A stretch of 33,191 nucleotides of DNA from Chloroflexota bacterium (lineage in GTDB: Bacteria > Chloroflexota > Anaerolineae > JAAYEA01). The notes below the pieces were generated by a model. That model was not told the DNA's origin. It searched no databases and saw only the letters and a list, made by a program, of their open reading frames with translations. A program made the position numbers and the translations under genes. The DNA lies in NCBI GenBank assembly GCA_012689325.1, contig JAAYEA010000298.1, forward strand, positions 1 through 33,191, in the 5' to 3' direction. This document shows, one piece after another, positions 9,093-9,488 of the stretch; position 1 is the first letter of the stretch, and each line of letters begins with the position of its first letter.

Positions 9093-9131
9093 AAAAAGCC
9101 CCTCGCCTGCGCATCCGCAGGGACGAAGGGC
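9093..9131 (-). terminator. T-box intrinsic terminator
   Basis: Reading the minus strand, GCCCTTCG (9131-9124), a two-base bulge and CCTGCG pair with CGCAGG and CGAGGGGC (9105-9098) around a GATG loop, giving a 14-bp stem with one wobble. Five U residues follow at 9097-9093. Its 5' strand overlaps the bases CGUCCCU that the antiterminator needs, so the two folds exclude each other. It ends 14 bases before the methyltransferase start codon. Confidence 0.92.
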
Positions 9132-9176
9132 CGCTCCGTGGTACCACCCTGATTGACAAAGATGGCATGGAAAGGG

Positions 9177-9205
9177 ATGATGGGCGCACAATGTGCGCCC
9201 ATCAT
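9177..9205 (-). terminator. Palindromic hairpin after tRNA-Ala(GGC)
   Basis: A perfect inverted repeat with 14-bp arms (9177-9190 and 9192-9205, ATGATGGGCGCACA and complement) around a single central base. It lies 10 bases after the tRNA 3' end and 26 bases before the T-box core. On the minus strand CCCTTTCC follows, which is only weakly U-rich. It could terminate the tRNA transcript or be a processing or spacer element of the leader. Confidence 0.6.
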
Positions 9206-9215
9206 TCATCCATCG

Positions 9216-9291
9216 TGGTGGAGCTGAGGGGATTCGAACCCCTGACCTCTTGACTGCCAGTCAAACGCGCTCCCAGCTGCGCTACAGCCCC
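9216..9291 (-). tRNA. tRNA-Ala (anticodon GGC)
   Basis: The 76-base cloverleaf includes an encoded 3' CCA. The acceptor stem GGGGCTG/CAGCTCC carries the G3:U70 pair that defines alanine identity. The anticodon arm TTTGA-CTGGCAG-TCAAG reads GGC, and the T arm has GGTTCGAATCC. It lies inside the T-box leader on the same strand. Short flanks (ATCG before, CGAT after) can extend the acceptor helix. Confidence 0.97.
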
Positions 9292-9488
9292 ACGATCTTG
9301 TCCACTCTGGGCATGGTAACGAATGCCACTCGGCGACGGCTACAGGATTCACCGTCGCGGCTCCCAGGCGAGTTCGGCCTTGTCTGCGCTCCCCTGTTGG
9401 CGCCAATGCCAGGCTCTCACCCACGCTCCGCCCGGCTCTCTGCAGGGGATGGCCTACTACTCCTGTTCCCGGCCTTTTTCATATGACA

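Follow-up and report, generated by a model that had tools for sequence, protein, structure and literature searches.

How might a T-box leader that reads one tRNA work when a complete gene for another tRNA lies between its sensor and its switch? This question is raised by a locus in the window, that is, the whole stretch of DNA analysed here (33,191 nucleotides, contig JAAYEA010000298.1 of the Chloroflexota bacterium assembly GCA_012689325.1). A preliminary description had placed a complete tRNA-Ala between the sensor and the switch of a T-box, and every element that it listed was found on the minus strand (Table 1). The order on this strand is promoter, tRNA-Ala(CGC), leucine T-box sensor, tRNA-Ala(GGC), antiterminator/terminator, methyltransferase, and leuS. 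The described layout was right and gained two additions: a second tRNA gene, Ala(CGC) at 9562-9488, stands under the same promoter, and the insertion lies in the stem III loop rather than in an undefined linker.

Anatomy of the interrupted T-box and its transcript

The stem I proposed earlier was recovered by the Rfam covariance model RF00230, which matched 9479-9116 over its entire length (model positions 1-219) with an E value of 3e-15 in a 751-base search. The score of 70.8 bits lies below the curated cut-off of 93 bits; the window T-box was missed at the Rfam gathering threshold and recovered by a permissive search. The alignment placed 136 bases as a single insertion between the stem III arms, just ahead of the antiterminator. 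Eight T-boxes were found in the source genome, and a tRNA lies inside this one only, with none in the other seven. One of the others (L001, G000:C508, positions 1501-1735) follows a tRNA-Asn(GTT) gene (1349-1423) on the same strand at a distance of 77 nt.

Table 1. Features of the tRNA-interrupted leucine T-box locus in the window.
Feature	Position	Strand	Basis
Sigma-70 promoter, TTGACA (9606-9601), 17-nt spacer, TATACT (9583-9578)	9578-9606	-	11/12 consensus matches
tRNA-Ala(CGC), first gene of the transcript, 8 nt ahead of the T-box match	9488-9562	-	63.6 bits
Complete leucine T-box, interrupted by a tRNA	9116-9479	-	RF00230, model positions 1-219, 70.8 bits
Stem I, with AGUA specifier-loop motif, AGAGA (9441-9437) and UGAGA (9419-9415) as interlocked T-loops, CUC (9372-9370)	9355-9476	-	
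Stem II hairpin GCGACGG/CCGUCGC, then GAGUGGC...CGUUACC (stem IIA/B region)	9311-9358	-	RF00230 alignment
RRRNG purine string GAGUG, directly 5' of stem III	9303-9307	-	Sequence; motif definition from PMC7583486, PMC7778990
Stem III 5' arm GACAAGAU, partner of 9163-9155	9295-9302	-	Sequence, covariation in relatives
tRNA-Ala(GGC) in the stem III loop, with G3:U70, A73, and encoded CCA	9216-9291	-	RF00005, 66.7 bits; ARAGORN
Near-perfect palindromic hairpin, 13-14 bp arms, no U-run, located after the tRNA 3' end and before the 3' arm of stem III	9177-9205	-	Fold, sequence
Stem III 3' arm AUCUUUGUC	9155-9163	-	Sequence, covariation in relatives
AA flank of stem III	9153-9154	-	AA at the matching place in 140/150 loci
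Antiterminator with T-box bulge UGGU, AGGGUGGUACC at 9150-9140	9116-9150	-	RF00230
Terminator hairpin GGCCCUUCG...CGAGGGGC, T-run 9097-9093	9093-9132	-	Sequence and fold
SAM-dependent methyltransferase, first gene behind the switch	8344-9078	-	PF13649
leuS, leucyl-tRNA synthetase	5373-8279	-	PF13603 editing domain, PF00133

The link to leucine and leuS that had been proposed was borne out, the specifier GAA-CUC being a leucine codon in agreement with the leuS gene downstream of the methyltransferase. Both interlocked T-loop motifs for the tRNA elbow are present in stem I, and the discriminator elements (RRRxG-stem III-AA and the UGGN bulge in the antiterminator) are present as well. The terminator at 9093-9132, which is mutually exclusive with the antiterminator, was absent from the list produced by a simple scan of the window, though it is visible in the sequence and its fold. 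In known T-boxes, the discriminator, which senses charging, is formed by 5'-RRRxG-stem III-AA-3', a motif that lies along the antiterminator:tRNA duplex (PMC7583486; also TBDB, PMC7778990). Here the order is GAGUG - GACAAGAU - (tRNA-Ala + 29-nt palindrome) - AUCUUUGUC - AA - UCAGGGUGGUACC. As judged from the sequence, the nested tRNA takes the place of the stem III loop, and the conserved parts of the discriminator are all retained. The preliminary description had held that the domains of described T-boxes are contiguous. This was too strict for stem III, which is variable and known to bear insertions (PMC7583486), and it stood insofar as the literature searched gave no description of a tRNA at this place.

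The nested tRNA at 9291-9216 has the cloverleaf and the GGC anticodon; a sub-threshold Rfam tmRNA match on it was rejected as similarity to the tRNA acceptor and T-arm. A tmRNA that ARAGORN predicted at 9489-9875 on the minus strand was likewise spurious, having arisen from the tRNA-Ala(CGC) gene. No other Ala(CGC) gene was seen in the tRNA loci read from the source genome. At the place of the palindrome at 9177-9205, several Anaerolineae carry other strong hairpins, none of which has a U-run.

A scan of the window gave two promoter-like sites against 0.3 expected, the second being on the opposite strand. The only good minus-strand promoter that precedes the two tRNAs and the T-box is the TTGACA-N17-TATACT site (9606-9578), and similar upstream promoters were found in 131 of 152 nested loci with a loose regular expression. 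These observations bear on the idea that two transcripts are made, with an internal promoter serving tRNA-Ala and the T-box acting on read-through RNA that carries the tRNA passively. In 8 of 152 loci, the final 180 nt of the leader do contain a loose promoter-like match. However, a search for an internal minus-strand promoter in the T-box leader of the window found none, nor does the great majority of relatives have one, and a good promoter precedes the first tRNA; we therefore regard two transcripts as very improbable.

Distribution and conservation of the nested layout

The region was compared by blastn with relatives of its class, which named neighbours indicated to be Anaerolineae; 58 of 60 matched, many through the tRNAs alone, and the nested order was seen in about 20 families when the best loci were analysed with Rfam and ARAGORN. 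Genomes were also searched with a pattern consisting of a tRNA T-arm followed by a T-box core within about 90 nt; no mismatch was allowed, so that the counts are lower bounds, and matches without a tRNA 3' end were removed by hand. A tRNA directly ahead of a T-box antiterminator was found in this way in at least about 197 distinct genomes of about 1,000, in Chloroflexota and Bacillota. By set, nested loci were detected in at least about 69 of 396 Anaerolineae genomes, at least about 29 of 251 genomes of the Chloroflexota set, at least about 68 of 299 Bacillota genomes, and at least 37 of the 113 genomes from the class to which Peptococcaceae bacterium BRH_c4b belongs. A further search at phylum level, built around a Clostridium genome, returned mostly the same genomes as the Bacillota set, and little was gained. 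The reversed pattern, used as a control, matched in only a few percent of genomes.

The conservation of order that had been anticipated in relatives was observed: 160 of the 162 distinct loci read carry tRNA-Ala(GGC). Both exceptions were excluded, one (L138) being a tRNA-Ser with a chance core and the other (L181) having lost its sensor. Because the order recurs in 160 distinct loci, against a few percent of genomes with the reversed pattern, chance is excluded as its origin. A chance insertion in a single metagenome-assembled genome is likewise ruled out by the relatives with the nested layout, and a chimeric assembly by the complete layout within genomes that consist of one contig (G422, 4,855,529 bp; G461, 3,601,386 bp; G494, 3,025,375 bp; G559, 2,401,520 bp; G581, 2,939,057 bp). 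The nested layout is apparently both common and ancient.

Nested relatives with RF00230 scores of 93.7-142 bits lay above the cut-off of 93, which was reached by 11 of the 19 nested leaders searched and by the BRH_c4b leader. Among the 152 loci with enough upstream sequence, the CUC specifier was present in 145, AG(A/C)GA in all 152, AGTA in 151, and CGTTA in 139. All 148 nested tRNAs tested have G3:U70 and A73, and 139 of 148 relatives have a T-run behind the antiterminator core. Pairing of the stem III arms exceeded that of the nulls, in contrasts that are inflated by related sequences, the partner swap breaking the relatedness between arms: with a floating anchor, applied equally to data and null, true partners gave a mean of 15.7 against 7.2 for swapped partners (sd 0.32); with a fixed anchor, 532 of 624 cells from 78 distinct arm pairs were paired against 396 after shuffling (maximum 428 in 1,000 shuffles); and duplex energies of -10.8 versus -7.2 kcal/mol agreed with the pairing tests. 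Yet the both-sided changes are varied and were seen at 7 of the 8 stem III pairs (fixed anchor). Arms that were weak or shifted, with fewer than five pairs under a strict anchor, occurred in 25 of 150 loci. At the site of the tRNA, relatives without nesting carry a stem III hairpin of the ordinary kind. Judged by nearly all the features tested, the nested element is a T-box, and its new part is the nested tRNA gene.

That the embedded tRNA had disabled the switch was one option offered earlier. On this account the conservation would be due to a useful tRNA and terminator, and leuS would be expressed by constant readthrough. Such decay does occur, since two loci (L181 and L029) have lost the sensor and retain tRNA and terminator. 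A dead sensor, however, would be expected to lose its motifs, whereas the specifier, the T-loop motifs, the covarying stem III arms, the discriminator purines, the antiterminator, and the terminator are conserved in two phyla. Moreover, where the sensor is gone, as in those two loci, only tRNAs and terminator remain. A dead switch is thus highly unlikely.

The source genome has one Ala(GGC) gene, as determined by a model search and by reading the anticodons of the fetched loci. The same holds more widely: in 28 of 29 nested genomes checked by pattern, several of them one-contig genomes, there is exactly one Ala(GGC) gene and it is the nested copy. The exception (G494) has two. Because it is the sole copy in 28 of these 29 genomes, the nested tRNA-Ala(GGC) is probably indispensable and the T-box leader its precursor; its status as sole copy also makes it very likely that the tRNA is released in mature form.

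Proposed order of switching and tRNA excision

Of the options first proposed, the one in which the switch works before processing fits best with the arrangement of these elements. We consider it probable that the locus is a leucine-sensing, transcription-attenuating T-box with tRNA-Ala(GGC) occupying its stem III loop, in which the decision falls on the intact nascent RNA and excision comes afterwards; its function as a leucine switch, the order of events, the excision, and the holding together of the halves are what we infer. A single promoter would give a transcript comprising tRNA-Ala(CGC), the sensor, tRNA-Ala(GGC), the switch, and the leuS operon. Uncharged tRNA-Leu would be bound by stem I as it emerges. 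The polymerase would then pass through the nested tRNA with its flanking sequence, about 140 nt at this locus, in a few seconds. The nested tRNA would fold as a capped extension of stem III, beside which the discriminator (RRRNG, stem III, AA, and antiterminator) could still form, and antiterminator or terminator would be chosen on the intact nascent RNA. Ordinary tRNA-processing enzymes would then excise tRNA-Ala. Because the tRNA precedes the terminator, tRNA-Ala would be made whichever way the switch goes.

After excision, the arms of stem III may keep the two halves paired. Such holding could be a reason for the conservation of stem III, although ordinary discriminator function would conserve it too. 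A switch acting strictly in trans, as had also been suggested, appears unneeded, since the halves could be held together by the covarying arms of stem III once the tRNA is removed. If RNase P cut co-transcriptionally, before the polymerase reached the terminator, the covalent link would be gone before the decision.

A more elaborate possibility is that excision of tRNA-Ala dismantles the discriminator, frees the tightly held tRNA-Leu, and sets the 5' end of the leuS mRNA, which would make each leader a single-use switch that tRNA processing resets; it is this coupling that would explain why both phyla have retained the tRNA within stem III. We regard this as unlikely, though worth considering. 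Somewhat more doubtful still is a broader regulatory role, in which the folding, processing, or charging of the nested tRNA feeds the leucine switch, for instance because excision destroys the discriminator and so frees a very tightly bound tRNA-Leu, or because the nascent tRNA's own ACCA competes for the UGGU bulge. The same isoacceptor accompanies a T-box for the same amino acid in two phyla, which is poorly explained by pure accident, and A73 is compatible with the UGGU bulge. A reset step might also be useful, given that T-box:tRNA complexes can have lifetimes exceeding one hour in vitro (PMC5951919). On the other hand, CCA is encoded in just 97 of 148 nested loci. Unprocessed tRNA 3' ends should not fit the T-box bulge, which also counts against a regulatory tRNA. 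In addition, several Chloroflexota keep the T-box with the tRNA upstream, and because the T-box persists in them, nesting is not required for switching.

Related systems and history of the nested state

The locus shares with transcriptional, stem II-containing T-boxes such as leuS leaders (RF00230) the stem I specifier loop and T-loops, the stem II region, RRRNG-stem III-AA, the UGGN bulge, the antiterminator/terminator, and a downstream leuS. In contrast to those leaders, its stem III loop holds an entire tRNA gene that serves another amino acid and is probably indispensable, and many Chloroflexota have a second tRNA gene before stem I in the same transcript. Insertions of unknown role in the stem III/discriminator region likewise indicate that the core tolerates extra stem III RNA (PMC7583486), whereas the nested insertion is identified, has a gene product of its own, and is of identical kind in two phyla.

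The literature searched, which did not extend to two main comparative T-box papers, gave no account of a tRNA within a T-box, so that the novelty of the layout is provisional. Co-transcripts of tRNA and mRNA are known, for example the tRNA genes ahead of tufB in Escherichia coli. As in these, one promoter would serve tRNA and mRNA, which tRNA processing would separate; here, however, the tRNA lies within the regulatory RNA of the mRNA and not ahead of it. Bacterial 23S rRNA contains excised intervening sequences in hairpin loops, which resemble the present case in being removable hairpin-loop domains whose stem is able to hold the pieces. The rRNA insert is discarded, whereas the nested insert is a functional tRNA and its host a switch.

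As far as the literature searched shows, a probably indispensable tRNA gene within a riboswitch that senses another tRNA is undescribed. The layout offers a way to test the timing of the T-box decision relative to tRNA processing, the working of a T-box that is split in two but held by stem III, the purpose of stem III insertions, and the clearance of ultra-stable T-box:tRNA complexes. There is a consequence for annotation too, as T-box searches under-score some nested leaders and tRNA finders give the tRNA alone.

In nearly all long loci, leuS lies behind the switch, either directly or one gene later. The methyltransferase between switch and leuS also occurs in genome G001, and most relatives have other genes or none; the intervening gene in other Anaerolineae is ilvE. 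In the BRH_c4b group (L322, L325, L327, L328, and L330), an acyl-CoA synthetase gene separates the leucine T-box from leuS.

In a LeuS tree, the Bacillota proteins stood apart from most Chloroflexota proteins. Transfer of a whole leuS operon between the phyla is unsupported by these separate groups, and the leader therefore did not simply move between phyla with leuS. Two loci, L306 (G006) and L307 (G029), have a LeuS of another lineage beneath a tRNA/T-box leader of the type usual in Anaerolineae, as though leuS had been exchanged and its leader retained. Chloroflexota in which both tRNAs lie upstream and stem III has its ordinary form were interspersed among nested ones in the tree, which implies five changes, at least three of them forced by well-supported branches (hand-picked rows). 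This distribution fits a nested state that is old and was left several times, with the direction of change not proven.

In one of the loci without a sensor (L181, G115:C307, minus strand, about 1400-1640), the promoter and tRNA-Ala(CGC) are fused to a T-box antiterminator/terminator, an apparent deletion scar of recombination between two tRNA-Ala genes. In the other (L029, G015:C2, 1501-1760), two tRNA-Ala genes are followed by a T-box-type terminator and then by ilvE.
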